Notes: generated by a model from the letters alone, not told the origin. A stretch of 46,767 nucleotides of DNA from a virus (IMGVR_UViG_3300020472_000051:1-46767); one strand, 5' to 3'. Positions 5,198 through 46,604 are shown, counted from the stretch's first letter. Numbers and translations: made by a program.

Positions 5198-6016
5198 ATG
5201 ATTATATTAACAGGTTCAAAAGGTTTCATTGGTCAGAACTTTCTCAAGTATTTGGTAGAACATTCTGATGAAGAAATCGTTACAGTTGATGAACATGATT
5301 GTTGGGATTGGATAGCATACTTTAAAGAGTGGGATAAAGTATCCCTTATACTACACCAAGGAGCGATCTCAGCAACGACAGAAACAGATATAGATAAACT
5401 CCATAGAACTAATGTTTGGTTCACTATAGAACTGTTTGAGAGGGCAATAGAGCATCAAATAGACGTTAAGTTTGCCTCATCTGCATCAGTATATGGCAAT
5501 ACAAGAAAGAGTCTATGGGCAACTACTCCCAATAAAATATCTCCACTAAATTATTACGCAATTACTAAGTTACAAATTGATTATTACATACAAGATAACC
5601 TAGATAAGTTCTCATCTATCCAGAGTTTCAGATACTTTAATGTATATGGAGATGGAGAAGATAAAAAAGGAGATCAGGCAAGTCCAGTTCATAAGTTTAC
5701 CAAACAAGTAAAGGAAACAGGTAAACTAAAACTGTTTGAAGGTTCAGGTAAATATCTAAGAGATTTTATTTGGGTTGGAGATATAGTAGAAGTCGTTCTT
5801 AATAATGACAAACCATCTGGTATCTATGATCTTGGAACCAGTAACCCAGTTAGCTTCAAACTTGTTGGTGAATTAATAGCAGCAAAATATAAAGGAGAAA
5901 TAGAATACATTCCATTCCCAGAACATCTAAAAGGAAAATATCAATACCTAACTATCGCAGAGAAGGTATGGGACTATCAGTTCGTAAACGTAGCACAGTA
6001 TCTTAATCTCCTCTAA
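5198..6016 (+). CDS. hldD: HldD-like ADP-heptose 6-epimerase
   Basis: This 272-residue short-chain dehydrogenase-type epimerase has a Rossmann N-terminus (TGSKGFIGQNFL) and a Y120-x3-K124 catalytic pair (YYAITK). Several segments match ADP-L-glycero-D-manno-heptose-6-epimerase closely: GAISATTETD, FRYFNVYG, a lysine near 157 before AS, LFEGS...RDFIWVGDI, and especially GEIEYIPFPEHLKGKYQ. HldD converts ADP-D,D-heptose to ADP-L,D-heptose, the last step before heptose transfer. It is shorter than the usual ~310 residues. It is the only plus-strand gene in the window and overlaps the cupin gene tail-to-tail by 14 bases. No clear Shine-Dalgarno is visible. UDP-sugar epimerase is the alternative, but the heptose-specific C-terminal match argues against it. 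Confidence 0.85.
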   Translation: MIILTGSKGFIGQNFLKYLVEHSDEEIVTVDEHDCWDWIAYFKEWDKVSLILHQGAISATTETDIDKLHRTNVWFTIELFERAIEHQIDVKFASSASVYGNTRKSLWATTPNKISPLNYYAITKLQIDYYIQDNLDKFSSIQSFRYFNVYGDGEDKKGDQASPVHKFTKQVKETGKLKLFEGSGKYLRDFIWVGDIVEVVLNNDKPSGIYDLGTSNPVSFKLVGELIAAKYKGEIEYIPFPEHLKGKYQYLTIAEKVWDYQFVNVAQYLNLL

Positions 6017-6359
6017 AGACTCTGTGTGAATCTAAATCAAAATGCTGTGTAGAAAACTCAAACAATTCAGAGTCTTCAAGAGCAACCATCTGATGTCTCA
6101 TCTTCCTTTCAATATGAAACTTATCACCTGGTTCTAAAACTATACTATCACCCAATGATATGTCATTATCAAAACCATAAAAGAGATGTATCTTACCCGA
6201 CTGTAAGAAAAATGTTTCATCCTTTAAAAGATGATAATGCCAAGAGCATCTCTTACCTTTAGCAAAGAATAAAAGCTTGCCACAATATTCTGAGGTATTA
6301 CATATCCACTTCTCGTAACCCCATCCTTTAGGGACAAATTTTATATCGTTATTATTCAT
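6003..6359 (-). CDS. Cupin, mannose-6-phosphate-isomerase-type fold
   Basis: This 118-residue single-domain cupin begins PKGWGYEKW. It has the metal-binding set WHYH (residues 40-43), the glutamate in DETFFLQSG and the histidine in KMRHQMV. Its ending (FEFSTQHFDLDSHRV) resembles type II phosphomannose isomerase and related sugar-nucleotide cupins. As the last gene of the heptose operon, coupled by an ATGA overlap to the oxygenase before it, it may isomerise or bind a sugar phosphate. Whether it replaces the missing GmhA-type isomerase is speculation. Its 3' end overlaps the convergent hldD gene. Confidence 0.75.
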   Translation of the reverse strand: MNNNDIKFVPKGWGYEKWICNTSEYCGKLLFFAKGKRCSWHYHLLKDETFFLQSGKIHLFYGFDNDISLGDSIVLEPGDKFHIERKMRHQMVALEDSELFEFSTQHFDLDSHRVFRGD

Positions 6360-6967
6360 ACAAAATTAGGACCTAACCCCCATCCAACTAATGCTTTTCT
6401 ACATCCACTAGTAACTGATGTTACTCTATGTAGTAAAAAAGAAGGAAAAACTATCACATCCCCTCTAGTAAGTTTAACACTATACAAACTATCTCTACTT
6501 GTCATGATTTCAAAATCACCACCTTCATAAGAATCGTCAGAAAGTCCTATTGAAAATGATACTTTCCTTTGTAATCCTTCTATATGTCTAGCTGGAATAT
6601 CGATATGCCAATCATATTGTCCTTCATATTCCGAATCATATTTACTATATTGAAATCCCTCCCATCCACGAATATTATACCCCCAAATATCATCATTAAT
6701 ATCTCTAACAATTCTTGTAATTTTATCATATATTGGGTTAAGTAAATCCTCATAATTCGTATCTATCAACCAACATATTTCAGAACGTCTAATGTCAATA
6801 TTTGCTCCACCAGTTGTACCAGCGTCATCTAAATCATGCTGACTAGCATACTCATCAATAAGATCTAATATATCATCATCAATCAAATTTGGAACATAAG
6901 TCTGCCAAGATGTATGATGCTCTGGCAAACTCACATTATTAATATCTCTATAAAAATAATCAGGCAT
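6356..6967 (-). CDS. Prolyl-4-hydroxylase-type 2OG-Fe(II) oxygenase
   Basis: This 203-residue protein carries the classical motif set: H121-x-D123 (YDWHIDIPARH), distal H180 (FPSFLLHRV) and R190 (GCRKALVGW). EGGDFEI and LTRGDVIVFPS complete the double-stranded beta-helix. It is closer to PKHD/P4H hydroxylases than the other four oxygenases here. It lies inside the sugar operon, overlapping the HAD gene by one base and the cupin by four. It may hydroxylate a sugar precursor or a protein; the neighbours favour a role in glycan tailoring, but this is inference. Confidence 0.85.
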   Translation of the reverse strand: MPDYFYRDINNVSLPEHHTSWQTYVPNLIDDDILDLIDEYASQHDLDDAGTTGGANIDIRRSEICWLIDTNYEDLLNPIYDKITRIVRDINDDIWGYNIRGWEGFQYSKYDSEYEGQYDWHIDIPARHIEGLQRKVSFSIGLSDDSYEGGDFEIMTSRDSLYSVKLTRGDVIVFPSFLLHRVTSVTSGCRKALVGWGLGPNFV

Positions 6968-7314
6968 TATACTCCATGACTTTTAAAGAATGAATCACAC
7001 TGCCACCCCTTATCATCTATAAAATAATCTGCGTGTGGTTTACCCATAATCAATTCATGATATTTAACTCCCCACTCATCTAATTGATCTCTTGTAAGAT
7101 CAAATAAAACCCCTTCTGCTTTTACAGAAGCAATAGAGTGTGGTTCTTCCGAAAACCTACCCATGGCTCTAGCAGTAAAGTAAATTATATAATGACCTTC
7201 ATCGTAAAGTTTATTTAATACATCGATTCTATCTTTCCACGGTTCTGCTTTATGATAATCCCTACCAACAGTTGGTGTACAAATAGTACCATCAATGTCT
7301 ATACAGTATCTCAT
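6967..7314 (-). CDS. HAD-family phosphatase
   Basis: At 115 residues this is a compact haloacid-dehalogenase phosphatase without a large cap. Motif I is CIDIDGT (D6 nucleophile, D8 acid/base), motif II is YFTAR (T47), motif III is K92 in GKPHAD and motif IV is DYFIDDKG (D100/D101). It overlaps the kinase gene by 23 bases. In ADP-heptose synthesis a GmhB phosphatase removes the 7-phosphate between the kinase and nucleotidyltransferase steps. This protein is shorter than GmhB (~190 aa) but could fill that role given its place directly after the kinase. The alternative is a generic LPS/capsule phosphatase. Confidence 0.8.
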   Translation of the reverse strand: MRYCIDIDGTICTPTVGRDYHKAEPWKDRIDVLNKLYDEGHYIIYFTARAMGRFSEEPHSIASVKAEGVLFDLTRDQLDEWGVKYHELIMGKPHADYFIDDKGWQCDSFFKSHGV

Positions 7315-8035
7315 GAATGTCCTCCTGTTGTAAAACGTAAGTTCCTAATTGCTGAACAGCAACTGCTGCTGCTCTATTACCTAACATTAATGCCTGTTCT
7401 ATATCATTATATGTTAGATAACCATATACTAAACCAGCAAGAAAAGTATCTCCAGCACCGACAACATCATAAACATTGACTTTCTCTGCTGGATACAATG
7501 TATTATTGTAAATACATCCCTGAGATCCTTTTGTTACTATTAGATTATCTATCTTATAGTCATCTAATTTATCATATTCTACATCATTTATCTTGATAAA
7601 GCAATTAGATTTATTAGGGAGTATAGACTTCTTACTATCAATAAACACAGGACAAGATGCACTCTCCACAATCTCAAATATCTTTTCCGTAGATAGATAC
7701 CCTTTATTATAATCCGATATTACAATGGCATCAAAACTATTTGTAGATACTGGTACTAATAAAGGTTTTACTCTCTCTTCATTATCAACTCTAAGAATAT
7801 GTTGATTTGATTTCTCATCAATAAATCTAGTCTTTACTATCTTCTCAGGATTAGTTAAGAATGTAATCTCCATATTAAATGATTGAAGATTCAAACAAAC
7901 ATTAGCTGCCATACCAGGCTTAGTTTGTATCTTAGCGTAATCTAAGACAGGTACTGGTGCTTCTGGACTTAACCTAGTACATCTACCATAGATATACTCA
8001 TCCTCACAACTATCACCCAGTAACAGTACTTTCAT
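7292..8035 (-). CDS. HldE kinase-domain-like PfkB sugar kinase
   Basis: This 247-residue ribokinase/PfkB-family kinase begins MKVLLLGDSCEDEYIYG. Next come RLSPEAPVPVL, a signature of the D-glycero-D-manno-heptose-7-phosphate kinase domain of HldE (RfaE), and the GAGD catalytic motif at residues 193-196 (DVVGAGDTFLAGL). It is shorter than the ~320-residue HldE domain. I chose the ATG at 8035 because the family usually begins at this beta strand; in-frame ATGs at 8053 and 8065 are possible, but the latter has a GGAGG only two bases away. It overlaps both neighbours by 23 bases. Likely reaction: ATP-dependent phosphorylation of heptose 7-phosphate. Confidence 0.85.
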   Translation of the reverse strand: MKVLLLGDSCEDEYIYGRCTRLSPEAPVPVLDYAKIQTKPGMAANVCLNLQSFNMEITFLTNPEKIVKTRFIDEKSNQHILRVDNEERVKPLLVPVSTNSFDAIVISDYNKGYLSTEKIFEIVESASCPVFIDSKKSILPNKSNCFIKINDVEYDKLDDYKIDNLIVTKGSQGCIYNNTLYPAEKVNVYDVVGAGDTFLAGLVYGYLTYNDIEQALMLGNRAAAVAVQQLGTYVLQQEDIHEILYRH

Positions 8036-8429
8036 TAATCTTTTTGATGACATTACTGCTGGCATATCCTCCCACTCTAGGAAGATGTCTTACCTCACCA
8101 GCATTTTCCCAACCAACTACATCACCATCCCTCCAATCATCACCAAGTAATAATATATCTGGTTGATATAGTTCAATTAGATCTTCTAACTCTTTCCTAC
8201 TACCAAAGGTATGTACCACATCAATATACTTGATTGCCTCAAGCATAGCAACCCTATAACAAAGATCGTTAATAGGGCGATGCTCTCCTTTGTCAGTACG
8301 AATCTTCTCATCCGTATCCGTAGCAACTATTACTTTGTCTCCTAGAGATCTAGCAACCTTGAATAGTTCTATGTGTCCTGGATGAAGAATATCGAATGTG
8401 CCATTACACCAAACAATATCATTCTGCAT
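8013..8429 (-). CDS. HldE nucleotidyltransferase-domain-like protein
   Basis: This 138-residue cytidylyltransferase-like enzyme has CNGTFDILHPGH (HPGH at 16-19), LLGDDWRDGDVVG, and the C-terminal SSNVIKKI segment after a gly-rich turn, as in the HldE/RfaE adenylyltransferase domain. That domain transfers AMP from ATP to heptose 1-phosphate to form ADP-heptose. In most bacteria kinase and transferase are fused in one HldE protein; here they are two overlapping genes, transferase first. A glycerol-3-phosphate cytidylyltransferase is the alternative, but the PfkB neighbour and HldD favour the heptose pathway. Confidence 0.85.
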   Translation of the reverse strand: MQNDIVWCNGTFDILHPGHIELFKVARSLGDKVIVATDTDEKIRTDKGEHRPINDLCYRVAMLEAIKYIDVVHTFGSRKELEDLIELYQPDILLLGDDWRDGDVVGWENAGEVRHLPRVGGYASSNVIKKINESTVTG

Positions 8430-10251
8430 TAGGAATCTTTACTAACTTCTGTATCTCAGGAAGATACATATATTCAATCTTACTCTTGTATAATGTATTA
8501 ATAGCATCATGAATTGTTTCTACTAATGGTTCTCCACCAAGATTAAAAGAAGTGTTGAAAAGTATTGGAACACCACTTAACTTTTCAAAAGAATCTATAA
8601 GATTGTAGTAATGTTCATTCTCATCTTTAGTGAGAGTTTGAATCCTACATGTATTATCAACATGAATCACTGACGGAATCTTTTTATCAACACCTTCTTT
8701 ACACTCAACAGCATACATCATATGAGGTGAATCTTCTCTACCTTGAAGATCAAACCATTCATTAACCTTTTCCTTCTTAATAGAACAAGCAAAAGGTCTA
8801 AAGAACTCTCTATGTTTTACACTATTAACAATATCCTTTCCATCTTTAATTGTAGGATCAAAAAGAATTGAACGATTACCAAGTGCTCTTGGACCACCTT
8901 CAGATCTTCCTTGGAAAATAGTAACTATCTCACCTTTACGAATTAATTTCGCAACATCATCATAAGAAGTATCAACAACATCCAAGTGATCATATTCATC
9001 CAAATAAGTATCTGGATCATATTGTGGACCATAATAGATTGAAGTTACTCTTGGTGGTGGACTAGTTATTTGTTCTTCTTGTGCCCAAATTTTTCTAACA
9101 GCACCTATAGAAGTTCCACCATCATGTGATATTGGTTCAACATAGATATTTAAATCTGGAAAATGTTTTAAGTACTGATAATTAGATACACAATTCAATC
9201 CATAACCACCAGAAATAACTATATTCTTTTCACCAGTTAGATCATGAGCCTTTTGAATCAACTTTATCATAGCATTTTCAGTATCTTTCTGAATCTTATA
9301 TGCTAAATCTTTTTGAACTTGTGTATATTCCTTACACCCACCTCTAAAGAATCTAGAAGTTTGATCATCTTTTGGTGTACCTAAAGCAGTAGGAGATAAT
9401 CCATACTTTTCCCTATCAACTGGTGGTTTTTCATTACTATTCTTTTCTTGTAAGGATTTAATCTCATTTAAATCATTTTGAATGATAGGATATCTTTCAA
9501 TATTAAGACGAGAATTATTAGGATAATTTGGTACAAAAAATTCCCTATTTACCCAACCACCTCTAAACAATTCTGGAAGATCAGGATTCTCCTTTCCATA
9601 TGGAGATAGACCCATAGTTTTTCCAGCATCAATAGCATCAAATCCACAATATTCAGTTATTGCTTCATATGCTTTTGTAAGACCTGGATATTCTGTGACA
9701 AATAATTCCTTCTCATCACCAACATTCTTAACACCAATATTATCAGAAGTACCAAGATGTTTATAAACAACATCAAATTTTAAATCAGGATCATACGATG
9801 CTTTAAAAATAGTTTCAAATTCAAAGATAGTATCATCAGTCAACTCACATCCCAAGAAACTTCCTGCACCATCAACACTTAAACAAGCAGCAGATTTAAA
9901 TCCAGAATTTAAAAAAGCACAACTAGCATGAATCTCATGATGTATCGTATCAATAAAAGTAATTCTGGGACCAGCATCCATCTTAGTCTGCTTTGTAAGT
10001 TTTCTTATCCAACCCTGATATAAATCCTCACCAGTCCAATCACACTTAGGACCATGCCTATGTGTATGAGTTACGACTAAATGATCTATATGATCTACAT
10101 ATTCAAAAGCTTTTAATAAACCTAATAATGGTGTTCCATCTCTTTTAAATCTAGATAAACGTTCTTCTTCTAGATAAAATACAACCTCACCATCAACCAG
10201 TAATGTGGTACTAGAATTATGACCACGAGAACATCCAAGAATAATACTCAT
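8419..10251 (-). CDS. NodU/TobZ-type O-carbamoyltransferase
   Basis: This 610-residue protein is full length for the carbamoyltransferase family. The N-terminal Kae1-like domain has CSRGHNSSTTLL, EEERLSRFKRDG, the metal histidines in HHEIH (104-108) and LSVDGAG (D127). The C-terminal YrdC-like domain has GRSEGGPRALGNRSILFDP, HREFFRPFACSI and PILFNTSFNLGGEPLV. The family uses carbamoyl phosphate and ATP to place a carbamoyl group on a hydroxyl of a sugar or antibiotic. It lies between the heptosyltransferase-like gene and the nucleotidyltransferase gene, overlapping the latter by 11 bases. Carbamoylated heptose is known in Pseudomonas aeruginosa LPS core, which gives a precedent for this gene combination. 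Confidence 0.92.
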   Translation of the reverse strand: MSIILGCSRGHNSSTTLLVDGEVVFYLEEERLSRFKRDGTPLLGLLKAFEYVDHIDHLVVTHTHRHGPKCDWTGEDLYQGWIRKLTKQTKMDAGPRITFIDTIHHEIHASCAFLNSGFKSAACLSVDGAGSFLGCELTDDTIFEFETIFKASYDPDLKFDVVYKHLGTSDNIGVKNVGDEKELFVTEYPGLTKAYEAITEYCGFDAIDAGKTMGLSPYGKENPDLPELFRGGWVNREFFVPNYPNNSRLNIERYPIIQNDLNEIKSLQEKNSNEKPPVDREKYGLSPTALGTPKDDQTSRFFRGGCKEYTQVQKDLAYKIQKDTENAMIKLIQKAHDLTGEKNIVISGGYGLNCVSNYQYLKHFPDLNIYVEPISHDGGTSIGAVRKIWAQEEQITSPPPRVTSIYYGPQYDPDTYLDEYDHLDVVDTSYDDVAKLIRKGEIVTIFQGRSEGGPRALGNRSILFDPTIKDGKDIVNSVKHREFFRPFACSIKKEKVNEWFDLQGREDSPHMMYAVECKEGVDKKIPSVIHVDNTCRIQTLTKDENEHYYNLIDSFEKLSGVPILFNTSFNLGGEPLVETIHDAINTLYKSKIEYMYLPEIQKLVKIPNAE

Positions 10252-10257
10252 AATACC

Positions 10258-11463
10258 CTATGATTTAGAATTAGCTTCAAGTTCCAACAACTGATCAATC
10301 GGTTTCTTTTTAGATTGTTTTACTTGTTGAAAACCATTATATTTAACACCCTTACTACTACCAGAAGATATTGGTTTCATTGATAATGGAGTAGTTTTAG
10401 AAGGTTCCAATTTAGGTGCTGTTGATTTTGGTTTAAACTTTACTGGTTCTTTAGAATCAGACTTAAGTTCTTTAACAGCAGATTTAAATCCTCCTTTACT
10501 AGTGTTTGGAGGAGAAGTTAATCCCATTGTTTGATTGTTTACACTACTAACTCCTATCTTATCCTTAATAGATTTTACAATCTTCTTAACAACATCAGCA
10601 TCAAAACACATTAAAGATTCATTATTTCTATCAGTAAATAAATCAATTGTCAATCTTATAGGACTATATCTTCTCTTACCTTTAGCATTATCAATGATAG
10701 TAAACTTTTTACTCTCTGGATATGAAATATTTTCAGGATAAGTTGATCCCACTACAACAGTAGCAGGTTTACCCATAGCATGAGCAAAATGCTGCCCTAC
10801 ACTATCACATCCTAAAAAGTAATCAGCAGCATTAATTACTCCTGCCCATTTATTTAAATCCATTCCACTAGGACAAGCAACTCCTAGTCCTTCCCATCCT
10901 GGAATTTCTATTTCTGTCATTAAAATAATAGAATAATTCTTTCTCAACTCTTCTATTACATGTATAACATTAGATACCTCAAAACTTCTACCAGTAGTAT
11001 CAAAAATAAATTGACCTTCCTTCTTACTTCCTTGCCCAAATGGTTGAAAAACTATTGTCTTATCCTTACCTAAATTCTGTTTAACTTCTGCTACTATATT
11101 ATGTCCTAATATCTGTTCTTCTTTACTAAGAGATAAATTAATAGGACCAACATCTCTAACCTCATCAACTTCATTAATTTCAATATCAAATGCTTGAATG
11201 AGATTACACTCTTGATTAAAATATTGATTAACTCTATAAGGTTCTGGTGATATTATCTTTCGATCAGTTAACATAGTTTCAAATAGTCCTTTATGAACCA
11301 TTTGATATACCTTATCTCTTAATTTCTCATTTAAAAAGTATAGTTCACCCCAAGATTCAGCAACGATTATAAAATCGTCATCCTTCTCAGCATATTTTTC
11401 TAACGCTGGCATGGAACAAAGTACACGTCCACTACCACCATTAATAAAGAAAGCTTTTTTCAT
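10258..11463 (-). CDS. Family-9 (heptosyl-type) glycosyltransferase with basic C-terminal tail
   Basis: Residues 1-305 look like a GT9 (ADP-heptose:LPS heptosyltransferase) fold. The N-terminus INGGSGRVLCSMPALEKY resembles the GDhxhxxPh acceptor-side motif. The C-terminal donor site GCDSVGQHFAHAMGKPATV (around D220) is followed by VGSTYPENISYP, a typical GT9 pattern. Residues ~307-401 are an added low-complexity tail rich in Lys, Ser and Pro (KFKPKSTAPKLEPSKTTPL), not part of the family. It is the first gene after the promoter at 11488-11516, with GAGG ten bases before its ATG. The acceptor could be host LPS or a phage protein. Confidence 0.8.
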   Translation of the reverse strand: MKKAFFINGGSGRVLCSMPALEKYAEKDDDFIIVAESWGELYFLNEKLRDKVYQMVHKGLFETMLTDRKIISPEPYRVNQYFNQECNLIQAFDIEINEVDEVRDVGPINLSLSKEEQILGHNIVAEVKQNLGKDKTIVFQPFGQGSKKEGQFIFDTTGRSFEVSNVIHVIEELRKNYSIILMTEIEIPGWEGLGVACPSGMDLNKWAGVINAADYFLGCDSVGQHFAHAMGKPATVVVGSTYPENISYPESKKFTIIDNAKGKRRYSPIRLTIDLFTDRNNESLMCFDADVVKKIVKSIKDKIGVSSVNNQTMGLTSPPNTSKGGFKSAVKELKSDSKEPVKFKPKSTAPKLEPSKTTPLSMKPISSGSSKGVKYNGFQQVKQSKKKPIDQLLELEANSKS

Positions 11464-11624: not shown

Positions 11625-12746
11625 TTACTTCCACTGAACACAAACCATTCCGAATCTACCCATGTCTCCACAATGACTCTGACAACCACCATTAGCAACT
11701 GACATCCATCCACCAGCACCAGGAATTTGAAGATATCCTGTATCATGTCTCCATCCACCACCACAACAGGTGTTTGATGACCATCCCTGTACACATTTTG
11801 AAGTATTTTCAAATCCATATACTGGAGCATGGCAGTTACAACCATAATTATTTGTATGGTGACACCAACCACCCCATATTCCACGAAGACCATAAACTAA
11901 GAATTCTGGACTGAGTCTTGTCTTTGTCTCATCTCCAACTAGATCAGCAGAAATATTCGTAGTACCAGAATAAATTGCTCCAGCAGAAGGTGTATAGCAG
12001 TTACTATATCCACCACCATTTCTACACATAGATCCACCTTGGTGACATGTACGAACTTCCCTATAACTACCATTAACACATGGTTGATAGCAAGGATTCT
12101 CTGCACCTAATCTAACTCCAAAATACTCACCCATAGATCCATCACCACCTTGGGCACAAACATAACATAATCCACATCCCTGAACATATGATGGGCATCC
12201 TGGATACCTGTTAGCACCAGATCCAGCTTGTCCCCAACAACAATAAGCACAACCAGCACAAATAGTATATGAATGTCCTGTAGTTACTGGAATAATAACA
12301 GAAGTATAAGCACCAGTAGATCCAAAGTGCGTCCATCCACAACATCTAGAAGGATGGTTTGCTCCACCACCAGCACCCCACATTTGGAATCTAGCTCTTG
12401 TTGCACCAGAAGGAACAACCCAAGTACAGTTTTTACCGCAACCACCATTCTCAGTAGTGTTACAGACCTTCGTATTACCAGTCCAATCTGAACCTGTATA
12501 GATACAAGTCCACTTAGTGGTATCAGCTGGACAACATTGTAGATATCTTTCTACATTACATCCAGAACCATCCATACACAGCCATCTACAAGCCATTGTC
12601 CATGCTTCTGCAGGTGCTTCAGAAAATGCTCCAGCACCACCACCACCAGTATTTGCTTTTAAATCAAATAATTCTTTTTGCTTGGCAGCAATCTGCTTCT
12701 TAAGAGATGACTGCTCATTCAGAGCACTATAAACTAATACATCCAT
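11625..12746 (-). CDS. Cysteine-rich virion protein A, 373 aa
   Basis: The protein has 33 cysteines in 373 residues, many in pairs (CC) or CxxC-like spacing. It starts with a short predicted coiled coil (residues 8-31, ALNEQSSLKKQIAAKQKEL) and a GGGG linker. The core (NCTWVVPSGATRARFQMWGA, then VIIPVTTGHSYTICAGCAYCC) follows the same plan as the glycine-rich adhesin module of the genes at 20417-29528. It is a paralog of 13507-14628, of identical length and cysteine number. A GGAGGG sits 11 bases before the ATG. It has no signal peptide. Probably a tail surface protein; whether the cysteines form disulfides or bind metal is not known. Confidence 0.65.
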   Translation of the reverse strand: MDVLVYSALNEQSSLKKQIAAKQKELFDLKANTGGGGAGAFSEAPAEAWTMACRWLCMDGSGCNVERYLQCCPADTTKWTCIYTGSDWTGNTKVCNTTENGGCGKNCTWVVPSGATRARFQMWGAGGGANHPSRCCGWTHFGSTGAYTSVIIPVTTGHSYTICAGCAYCCWGQAGSGANRYPGCPSYVQGCGLCYVCAQGGDGSMGEYFGVRLGAENPCYQPCVNGSYREVRTCHQGGSMCRNGGGYSNCYTPSAGAIYSGTTNISADLVGDETKTRLSPEFLVYGLRGIWGGWCHHTNNYGCNCHAPVYGFENTSKCVQGWSSNTCCGGGWRHDTGYLQIPGAGGWMSVANGGCQSHCGDMGRFGMVCVQWK

Positions 12747-12752
12747 GTTTAA

Positions 12753-13466
12753 TTAACCCTCCGCAGTTTCGCCAGGAAAATGTAGTGTTTCTCCACCACC
12801 TAAAGCAAAACTATGTGGTAATGGTAAATTCTTAAACGCCTTCATAATATCAGCATCTATCTTAGGAATAGATGGTGGTGTAGGTTGAGTTGTATACTTC
12901 CAAGTTTTATATGGAGGATTGTCATTTATATAAGATGTAATTCCTACAAGATAATTATCTATCTTAGCATTAACATCTGTTCCAAAATCATATTGAGAAT
13001 AATAAGTCTCTACATAAGACTTTCTTCTCTTCGCTTCTGCCTGTCCATTATTACGCTGTTCTTTCAATATCTGTTCTACAACCCATTTACCAGTGCCAGA
13101 ATCCCATCTTGGTTTCACATATACATCTTCTAAATCTGGATTATCTAAACGATTATATACATCACCGTTAGATTGAGTCTCTTGAACATAATTTTCTGTC
13201 CAAACAAACCCTTCTTCATCAACATGGGATCTAGCAAGATAAGCTATTGGTAATTCATCAGCATTAGTAGGCTTGATAGTTTTCTTTCTATCATCAGAAG
13301 GGTATTCCTGTTGATCAAAGTTAATAATATACCCTTGCCCATCTATTTCAACATCAAACTCATCGGGTCCTATGTAAGTATAAGTCCCAGTTTTAGTAGT
13401 CGAGATACCAGCGACATAATTTTCCTCTGGCAGAGCGTAAGTAAATGATTGTGTAATTTTTGCCAT
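12753..13466 (-). CDS. Tail-region protein of unknown function, 237 aa
   Basis: I recognise no catalytic motif. Residues 1-60 are beta-rich (TYIGPDEFDVEIDGQGYIINF). The middle is charged (RRKSYVETYYSQYDFG) and the C-terminus has a proline-rich linker (TTQPTPPSIPKID) before the end GGGETLHFPGETAEG. It lies between the two cysteine-rich paralogs and directly behind a late promoter box, so a role as their assembly chaperone or attachment partner is plausible from position only. Confidence 0.6.
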   Translation of the reverse strand: MAKITQSFTYALPEENYVAGISTTKTGTYTYIGPDEFDVEIDGQGYIINFDQQEYPSDDRKKTIKPTNADELPIAYLARSHVDEEGFVWTENYVQETQSNGDVYNRLDNPDLEDVYVKPRWDSGTGKWVVEQILKEQRNNGQAEAKRRKSYVETYYSQYDFGTDVNAKIDNYLVGITSYINDNPPYKTWKYTTQPTPPSIPKIDADIMKAFKNLPLPHSFALGGGETLHFPGETAEG

Positions 13467-13506: not shown

Positions 13507-14628
13507 TTAATTATAAGAAACACAAACCATACCCATTCTACCTGCATCACCGCAAGTACAGTTACCACCACAGGAGGAGCCCAACCAAGCACCAGCACCA
13601 GGTATTGGTCTAACACTAGTATTCCAAGCACTCTGGCAGAATCCACCACAGTTATTACAAATCCAACATCCACCTCTTCCACAACAATAAGATGGGAAAC
13701 CATATGGTGTAGATGCCCAACCAAACATAGGCATATAGTTGTCTTGAGCTATATATGACCACATTCCTCTGTGTCCATAAACACCGCTACCTTGTCCAGA
13801 AGTATCAGATCCATAGAAACATACACAACGAGCTACCCAAGGCATTAAAGCACCAGAACACATTCCTTCTGGATATCCTTGTCCAGGTGTATCATACTCA
13901 GCACAAACCCAAGCACCACTCCTACACATACATCCACCAAGATATCTACAATAACAATATTGACCAGTCTTAACTCCATACTGATCTGCTCTATCCTCAA
14001 TCTCTTTGAACATACATCCAGACCATCCACCTTGAGCACAGAAGTTACTTAGGTTAGTTCCCTGAACATAAGAATCATATCCTCTCTGTTGATTATATCC
14101 ATCACCATAAGCATAGCAACAATAAGCACAACCAGCACATAATGTATATTGACTACCAGCAGAAACTGGAATAATAACAGAAGCATAAGCACCAGTAGAT
14201 CCATGAGGAGAAAACCCACAGCATCTAGATTCGGAGTTACCTCCACCAGCACCCCAAATTTGGAATCTAGCACAAGTTGTTCCACCAGGAACAGTCCAAG
14301 TACAGTTATTACCACAACGATAATATCCCGACGTATCACAAACTTTAAATCCACTAGTAAATGCTGTACCAGAATTGGGACAAAATACATTAGCATCTGA
14401 ACCATATGTGGTAGGAAACAAGCACCACTGGTTTGCCTGATGCATGTATCCTGCTTCAGCAACCTTTCTTAGAATATTACAAGCATCGCTTAGAGCAATA
14501 GCAGAACCACCGCCACCGCCACCTCCACCTGAGGCTTCAGTAACTTGTGCGGTTAAATCAGTAAGTTCTTGTCGAAGTTCTTGATTTACTTCTTGTAAAG
14601 CATTATAGGTTAAAACATCTATTGCCAT
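13507..14628 (-). CDS. Cysteine-rich virion protein B, 373 aa
   Basis: Paralog of 11625-12746 with the same length and the same count of 33 cysteines. The N-terminus MAIDVLTYNALQEV and the following heptad-like helix (NQELRQELTDLTAQV) parallel protein A, then comes a run of eight glycines. Shared landmarks are NNCTWTVPGGTT, FQIWGAGGG, SRCCGFSPHGSTGAY, VIIPVSAGSQYTLCAGCAYCC and the end CGDAGRMGMVC. The gene starts one base into the preceding small gene's stop codon. Likely a trimeric or oligomeric tail surface protein (inference). Confidence 0.65.
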   Translation of the reverse strand: MAIDVLTYNALQEVNQELRQELTDLTAQVTEASGGGGGGGGSAIALSDACNILRKVAEAGYMHQANQWCLFPTTYGSDANVFCPNSGTAFTSGFKVCDTSGYYRCGNNCTWTVPGGTTCARFQIWGAGGGNSESRCCGFSPHGSTGAYASVIIPVSAGSQYTLCAGCAYCCYAYGDGYNQQRGYDSYVQGTNLSNFCAQGGWSGCMFKEIEDRADQYGVKTGQYCYCRYLGGCMCRSGAWVCAEYDTPGQGYPEGMCSGALMPWVARCVCFYGSDTSGQGSGVYGHRGMWSYIAQDNYMPMFGWASTPYGFPSYCCGRGGCWICNNCGGFCQSAWNTSVRPIPGAGAWLGSSCGGNCTCGDAGRMGMVCVSYN

Positions 14629-46025: not shown

Positions 46026-46604
46026 TTATTTATCAATATCAGTATTAAAACTAATACATAATCTTCTACCAGTTTCTTTATCAGTCTTATGTTCTAACCA
46101 ACTAGGAAATAATATTAACATTCCAGAACTAATATGTATTAAATCAAAGAAAGATGGGTATTGTGATTGAATATTAAAATCATAGTCCTCAGACATTTTA
46201 TAATGCCAAATAGGATTCTTAAAAAGTAAAGGAGTTACTGAAGTATTGAGTTCAGGATAAAATACACCACTAACTATAGAACGCTCATGACGATGTAACT
46301 CTAATCTACCACCAACCTCAGTTATATTAGACCAACTACCAGAAATTTTAAGACGAGTAAATCCCATTCTTTGACAATAATCCTCAACACAATACTCTAT
46401 AGATTCCTTCAAATCAGATAGCTCAGAAGCATTTAAAAAATTAGGATTTAATCTATAATCACTCTTACCATTATCCAATAAATGAAATTCTTGTTTACCC
46501 ACACTCTCAATATATTCAGAAATTAATTCCAAATCCAAATTAGAAAGATCAAATAAAGATACTGGTGTAGGGAATAAATTTAATTCTTTCTTTCTTATCG
46601 ACAT
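46026..46604 (-). CDS. 2OG-Fe(II) oxygenase-like protein
   Basis: This 192-residue member of the phage 2OG-Fe(II) family has LELHRHERSIVSGVFY (H104, H106), a glycine-methionine turn then FPSWLEHKT (H172), and R181 in RRLCISFN. The N-terminal LNLFPTPVSLFDL is similar in style to the DLFPTxLW start of the tandem pair at 358-1523. It is the first gene after psbA; its ATG immediately follows the T-tract of the psbA terminator, and no Shine-Dalgarno lies between them. The substrate is unknown. Confidence 0.75.
   Translation of the reverse strand: MSIRKKELNLFPTPVSLFDLSNLDLELISEYIESVGKQEFHLLDNGKSDYRLNPNFLNASELSDLKESIEYCVEDYCQRMGFTRLKISGSWSNITEVGGRLELHRHERSIVSGVFYPELNTSVTPLLFKNPIWHYKMSEDYDFNIQSQYPSFFDLIHISSGMLILFPSWLEHKTDKETGRRLCISFNTDIDK
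46027..46034 (-). promoter_or_regulatory. Late promoter box GATAAATA
   Basis: The box ends 20 bases before the HNH start at 46006 and overlaps the last codons of the oxygenase gene. Confidence 0.55.

Follow-up and report, generated by a model that had tools for sequence, protein, structure and literature searches.

The bacterial ADP-heptose pathway (GmhA, HldE, GmhB, HldD) has a GDP-heptose counterpart in which the kinase (HddA) and guanylyltransferase (HddC) are unrelated to those of the ADP route. Among cyanophages, P-SSM2, S-SM2 and S-SSM7 were earlier listed as carrying co-occurring lipopolysaccharide (LPS) genes, found mainly in larger cyanophage genomes and possibly representing 'stuffer DNA' (PMC3037559), and the function of these 'LPS gene clusters' (T4-GC 302-308) was left open. 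The same genes form a cassette at positions 5,198-11,463 of the IMG/VR virus record IMGVR_UViG_3300020472_000051:1-46767 (46,767 nt; this whole stretch is referred to below as the window), which belongs to a T4-like cyanophage, an ocean cyanobacterial virus. The order of its predicted chemistry is that of the bacterial ADP-heptose pathway, with a kinase and a nucleotidyltransferase homologous to domains I and II of HldE, respectively, and an epimerase homologous to HldD; unlike the bacterial pathway, it has a cupin in place of GmhA and a HAD phosphatase of the EcbF/BcbF type in place of GmhB, and its HldE is split and shortened. The cassette is already known as cyanophage 'LPS genes', and what is new here is an answer to the missing isomerase step. 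We consider it likely that these genes encode a GmhA- and GmhB-free ADP-heptose route in which the cupin acts as the isomerase, and that the heptose is put on the phage's own fibres and carbamoylated.

The cupin (6003..6359, minus strand, 118 residues) has a structural model with a pLDDT (predicted local distance difference test) of 95.6, for which ranks 1-6 of a fold search are all D-lyxose isomerases, some with bound D-fructose or D-mannose. A profile search likewise ranked the D-lyxose isomerase 2y0o first, with the score against Pfam PF07385 falling short of the cut-off (19.3 vs 20.8 bits). The catalytic and metal-binding set of the Thermofilum lyxose isomerase, K62 H75 H77 K86 E88 H143 E156 (PMC8378251), has its counterparts in cupin K28 H41 H43 K46 E48 H89 E101, such that the metal ligands H75, H77, E88 and H143 and the catalytic K86 and E156 are all matched, and this set is invariant in all heptose-linked cupins bar one exception at E48. 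Thermofilum D163 corresponds either to D110, which is invariant at a spacing of 9 rather than 7, or to the variable D108. The D-lyxose/D-mannose isomerases 2y0o and 7nzo thus share with the phage protein a fold, metal ligands and a catalytic Lys/Glu, and their aldose-ketose isomerisation of lyxo/manno sugars resembles the reaction predicted for the cupin, which differs in being a small single domain with a shorter loop between the motif His and Glu, and in its probable phosphosugar substrate. D-glycero-D-manno-heptose 7-phosphate has the manno configuration handled by D-lyxose isomerases, and the corresponding ketose, sedoheptulose 7-phosphate, is one of the intermediates of the Calvin cycle. 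Fold model and conserved residues, together with the gene contexts described below, make it highly probable that the cupin is an isomerase replacing GmhA; among open-access papers we found none that links a cupin to phosphoheptose isomerase or GmhA. A role as an RmlC-type 3,5-epimerase was considered and rejected, as the metal ligands are kept and the cassette contains no 4-keto-forming dehydratase. Public labels for the cupin in AY939844.2, KU686192.1, KU686199.1 and relatives are 'nucleotidyltransferase', 'cysteine dioxygenase' or 'glucose-1-phosphate adenylyltransferase related'.

No gmhA (SIS-fold isomerase) is present in the window or in six complete relatives, and a GmhA profile scan that recovered its positive controls found none in 100 loci. 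Entries named 'phosphoheptose isomerase' in the same public records and their relatives were tried as GmhA candidates and turn out to be the HAD. The genome sets searched here consisted of species representatives and metagenome-assembled genomes, possibly incomplete, with at most the 80 best loci considered per scan and some of the loci counted coming from one contig. With 3 kb taken on both sides, viral kinase loci contained the cupin in 51/51 cases, the HAD in 48/51 and gmhA in 0/51. The pattern extends to cellular genomes: a scan with the cupin recovered a Parcubacterium cluster of GT9, cupin, hldA, an hldC-gmhB fusion and hldD in a genome without gmhA, one example of clusters in which gmhA is the sole gene absent. 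In a sample of 380 Patescibacteria, 16 genomes encode an HldE kinase (called at >200 bits); ten of these have gmhA (eight adjacent, one fused in a 538-residue frame, one on a separate contig) and the other six encode the phage-type cupin, which neighbours the kinase gene in two genomes and forms a fusion protein with the kinase in four, with either domain first. Save for a weak SIS match in G308, given below, gmhA and the cupin occur together in none of the 16 (Fisher P=1e-4), and the cupin is associated with the kinase (P=1e-8), both values assuming independent genomes and hence being overstated. The isomerase slot of the GDP-heptose pathway may be filled in the same way, as in Bellamy and SynMITS9220M01 the cupin is flanked by HddA-like and HddC-like genes, neither of which occurs in the window. 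HddA is unrelated to HldA and has only the substrate heptose 7-phosphate in common with it, and therefore the cupin appears to follow the substrate. SynMITS9220M01 was previously described as having heptose LPS genes. In one genome outside the Patescibacteria sample (G003), HldA is present without gmhA and the cupin is unlinked.

Not all related cupins belong to this group. Patescibacterial cupins matching at 59-92 bits have Q-x-H rather than H-x-H (Gln at position 41) and mostly lack the C-terminal D/R, and they were set aside; no heptose kinase was found within ~1.5 kb of them. They form a large family (loci L112-L134), probably mannose-6-phosphate isomerase-like, an enzyme type that we take Q-x-H cupins to resemble.

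All eight cassette genes proposed in an earlier note on this DNA lie where it placed them, and each matches its proposed family far above chance in profile searches. Its picture of a single operon does not hold, because the epimerase is on the plus strand and convergent with the other seven genes, which are all on the minus strand and which it meets tail-to-tail with a 14-base overlap. The epimerase itself (5198..6016, 272 residues) is HldD-like as proposed: it scores 207.6 bits with TIGR02197 vs 50.6 for the next best model, GalE, its best PDB sequence match is HldD 1eq2 (E=1e-43), it shares the substrate-region motif IEYIPFPEHLKGKYQ with HldD, and its Y120, K124 and K158 align with HldD Tyr140, Lys144 and Lys178, presumably the catalytic residues. 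HldE domains are also the best-scoring families for the kinase and nucleotidyltransferase. The kinase (7292..8065, HldE domain I-like, or HldA) carries SPEAPVP and GAGD motifs, has HldA 4e84 as best PDB match and reaches 153 bits with TIGR02198 vs a cut-off of 345, its domain not being full length (257 vs 315 residues). The nucleotidyltransferase (8013..8429, HldE domain II-like, or HldC) reaches 106 bits with TIGR02199 vs 72 for TagD, and its HPGH fits the HxGH motif; unlike these family-profile scores, a single-sequence PDB search ranks cytidylyltransferases first. Given NCBIfam cut-offs of 274.6 bits for TIGR02197 and 181.5 for TIGR02199, all three proteins fall under their curated equivalog thresholds and are therefore divergent members. 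A nearly canonical set occurs in another phage with the same glycosyltransferase (GT) and carbamoyltransferase (L062), where a fused HldE-like protein scores 313 bits, with its second domain above cut-off at 182.8, and the phage encodes GmhB (132 bits) and an HldD-like epimerase (208 bits) as well as the cupin, with no gmhA. From these signatures we are confident that the cassette would make ADP-heptose, as the earlier note had suggested. In S-SM2 and P-TIM68 (L361, L005) the heptose genes adjoin transketolase-like and alcohol dehydrogenase genes, perhaps for another sugar.

The HAD phosphatase (6967..7314, minus strand) matches the capsule phosphatases EcbF/BcbF at 32 bits and also a BT0820-type model, has invariant DxD (D6/D8) and DD100-101 motifs, and gave no GmhB/HAD-IIIA match in profile searches. 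Among loci selected by the GT, a GmhB-like gene is found in ones that lack the HAD, and a single kinase-selected locus has both. The suggestion that it replaces GmhB is borne out to the extent that it is not GmhB-like itself and is almost never found together with GmhB, and it is probably the heptose 1,7-bisphosphate 7-phosphatase. The 2-oxoglutarate (2OG)-Fe(II) oxygenase (6356..6967, minus strand; PF13640, 47.9 bits) had been counted as a core part; P-SSM2 has none at the corresponding place, and the gene is accessory and inconstant among relatives.

At the far end of the cassette, the GT (10258..11463, minus strand) has an AlphaFold2 model (pLDDT 85) with a disordered C-terminal tail at residues ~314-375, and its top PDB folds are WaaF, WaaC and TibC. 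Single-sequence and profile searches of PDB sequences gave no match and the fold search alone succeeded, with the Pfam PF01075 (GT9) score below cut-off (20.4 vs 22 bits). D93, D220 and H225 are invariant, and the Asp of the canonical N-terminal G-D motif of GT9, which we take to be catalytic, is Arg13 in 50/50 sequences. The four-cysteine iron finger of TibC/AAH is absent, C16 and C219 being the only conserved Cys, and with Arg13 this places the GT strictly in neither the GT9 nor the TibC family; what stands of its proposed GT9 identity is the ADP-heptosyltransferase fold. TibC attaches heptose to an autotransporter protein (PMC4358343). The TibC/AAH enzymes are similar in their ADP-heptose-using GT-B fold, in having the gene beside an adhesin-like target and in the protein heptosylation proposed here, and differ in the iron finger, in sequence (11-14% identity) and in target, an autotransporter vs a phage fibre. 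Adjacent to the GT is a 610-residue O-carbamoyltransferase (8419..10251, minus strand) of the expected NodU/TobZ type, with both Pfam domains above cut-off (PF16861, 200 bits; PF02543, 74 bits) and TobZ and GdmN as relatives, and the two genes are paired in 81/82 loci. That the carbamoyl group goes on the heptose is, in our estimate, an even chance.

Directly 5' of the GT lies a Gly/Cys-rich fibre-region protein (11625..12746, minus strand; 17% Gly, 8.8% Cys), followed by a 237-residue fibre-region protein that is a conserved neighbour (12753..13466, minus strand) and by a paralogue of the first (13507..14628, minus strand). The two Gly/Cys-rich proteins are candidate acceptors. Such proteins (~12-20% Gly, 6-12% Cys) precede the GT in 74/84 loci with an upstream frame by single-pass search and in 81/84 by iterated search, a count possibly inflated by composition bias, and the reverse search found the GT in 68/77 loci, with seven of the nine exceptions on contigs <4.6 kb. 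Neither protein in the window has a Pfam family; they are tandem paralogues conserved in the fibre region, with a Cys content unusual for a phage fibre.

Gene identities, folds, conserved residues, exclusivity with gmhA, fusions, synteny and purifying selection are computed results; what each enzyme acts on, the acceptor and the carbamoylation site we infer as follows. Sedoheptulose 7-phosphate drawn from the host Calvin cycle would be isomerised by the cupin, giving D-glycero-D-manno-heptose 7-phosphate, which the kinase would phosphorylate to the 1,7-bisphosphate; the HAD would remove the 7-phosphate, the nucleotidyltransferase would add AMP, and the epimerase would turn the D,D into the L,D form. 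The GT would then transfer heptose, most likely onto the Gly/Cys-rich fibre proteins encoded next to it, and the carbamoyltransferase may cap the transferred sugar.

The earlier note had left open whether the isomerase comes from the host or is the cupin. GmhA is indeed missing from the cassette, and were host gmhA to supply the activity, the cupin would do some other job, such as modifying the sugar once it is complete or using mannose 6-phosphate as its substrate. Consistent with this, 32/121 host-family genomes have a gmhA-like match; most of the 121, however, have neither kinase nor gmhA, and we favour the cupin over the host as the source for this reason. On the side of the cupin as isomerase we also count that Cyanobiaceae with an HldE kinase have gmhA in 18/20 cases and the cupin in 0/20. 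The retained lyxose-isomerase active site, the cupin-or-gmhA alternation and two-way kinase fusions in Patescibacteria, and the company of two unrelated heptose 7-phosphate kinases also argue against a host isomerase, which we regard as improbable. Several observations do weigh against the proposed route. H-type cupins occur in three genomes without HldA or HddA (G002, G004, G138), which also speaks for another job for the cupin; two of these genomes (G004, G138) are small and therefore perhaps incomplete, and a wider substrate range is possible. G308 has a weak SIS match (90 bits) on another contig, SynMITS9220M01 has, in addition to its cupin, a GmhA-like gene (47 bits) that adjoins another HddA-like kinase, the cassette kinase lacks ~45-60 residues present in HldA, and the GT has Arg13 at the canonical Asp position. 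Finally, the heptose cassette is without the GT in 24/51 loci, in glycosyltransferase clusters possibly serving cell-surface sugars.

This last point bears on the acceptor, for which both host LPS and the phage's own tail had been suggested. The same pathway could supply heptose to host LPS or another surface glycan and so block superinfection, as the public annotation as LPS genes (PMC3037559), the WaaC/WaaF-like GT fold, and the position of the heptose genes among other glycosyltransferases in S-SM2, P-TIM68, Bellamy and Sf-CH5 would allow. The absence of heptose from marine Synechococcus LPS that the earlier note mentioned is borne out: in strains WH8102 and CC9311 this LPS has neither heptose nor KDO (3-deoxy-D-manno-octulosonic acid; PMC4515613) and therefore no canonical heptose acceptor, and the cassette carrier Sf-FS3 infects WH8102. 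Together with the GT-carbamoyltransferase pair fixed beside fibre genes and the GT homologues among tail genes of unrelated phages, this favours the phage's own fibre proteins; host LPS is the less likely target, and a minority possibility in our view, and a tail protein is somewhat more probable than not as the acceptor. As for non-functional stuffer DNA for headful packaging, the idea fits the prevalence of these genes in larger genomes; it is nonetheless very improbable, given open frames, kept catalytic residues and low ratios of nonsynonymous to synonymous substitution (dN/dS). Against P-SSM2, dN/dS is 0.02 for the nucleotidyltransferase, 0.06 for the epimerase, 0.15 for both kinase and HAD, 0.23 for the cupin, 0.24 for the carbamoyltransferase and 0.27 for the GT, evidence of purifying selection, with the neighbouring fibre genes higher at 0.33 and 0.51. 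Apparent decay of the kinase and nucleotidyltransferase in S-CAM1 and S-CAM3 was dismissed, the truncations being wrongly annotated starts with both frames open.

It is tempting to generalize, and we do so tentatively: the cupin family may be a second, unrelated phosphoheptose isomerase, with which cyanophages bring a full pathway to mostly deficient hosts and heptosylate and carbamoylate their own tail fibres, and the related GT of Vibrio and Aeromonas phages may do likewise with host ADP-heptose, which these hosts make themselves. Such a reading would fill the single missing step in a pathway open since the first cyanophage genome comparisons, predicts that a textbook reaction is also carried out by a new family of enzymes, and should also account for Patescibacteria without gmhA; it corrects misleading public gene names and makes the purpose of phage 'LPS genes' directly testable.

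The gene order of the window is common to P-SSM2, P-SSM5 and one single-cell virus at 80-82% DNA identity, and most of it is found in S-CAM1, S-CAM3, S-SSM7 and Sf-FS3. Distant GT homologues lie between tail genes in Aeromonas phage HJ05 and N4-like Vibrio phages (L389, L390, L391), with no recognised carbamoyltransferase or heptose genes nearby. On a phage-like contig in a single-cell genome (Prochlorococcus AG-409-P03, L016), the cupin is beside DegT aminotransferase, PanB-like and thiamine pyrophosphate-enzyme genes, ~12 kb from a split HldA-like kinase. The window also encodes four further 2OG-Fe(II) oxygenases of one PHROG (81) at 358-2487 and 46026-46604, three of them clustered, for which hydroxylation of fibre or other proteins is possible.

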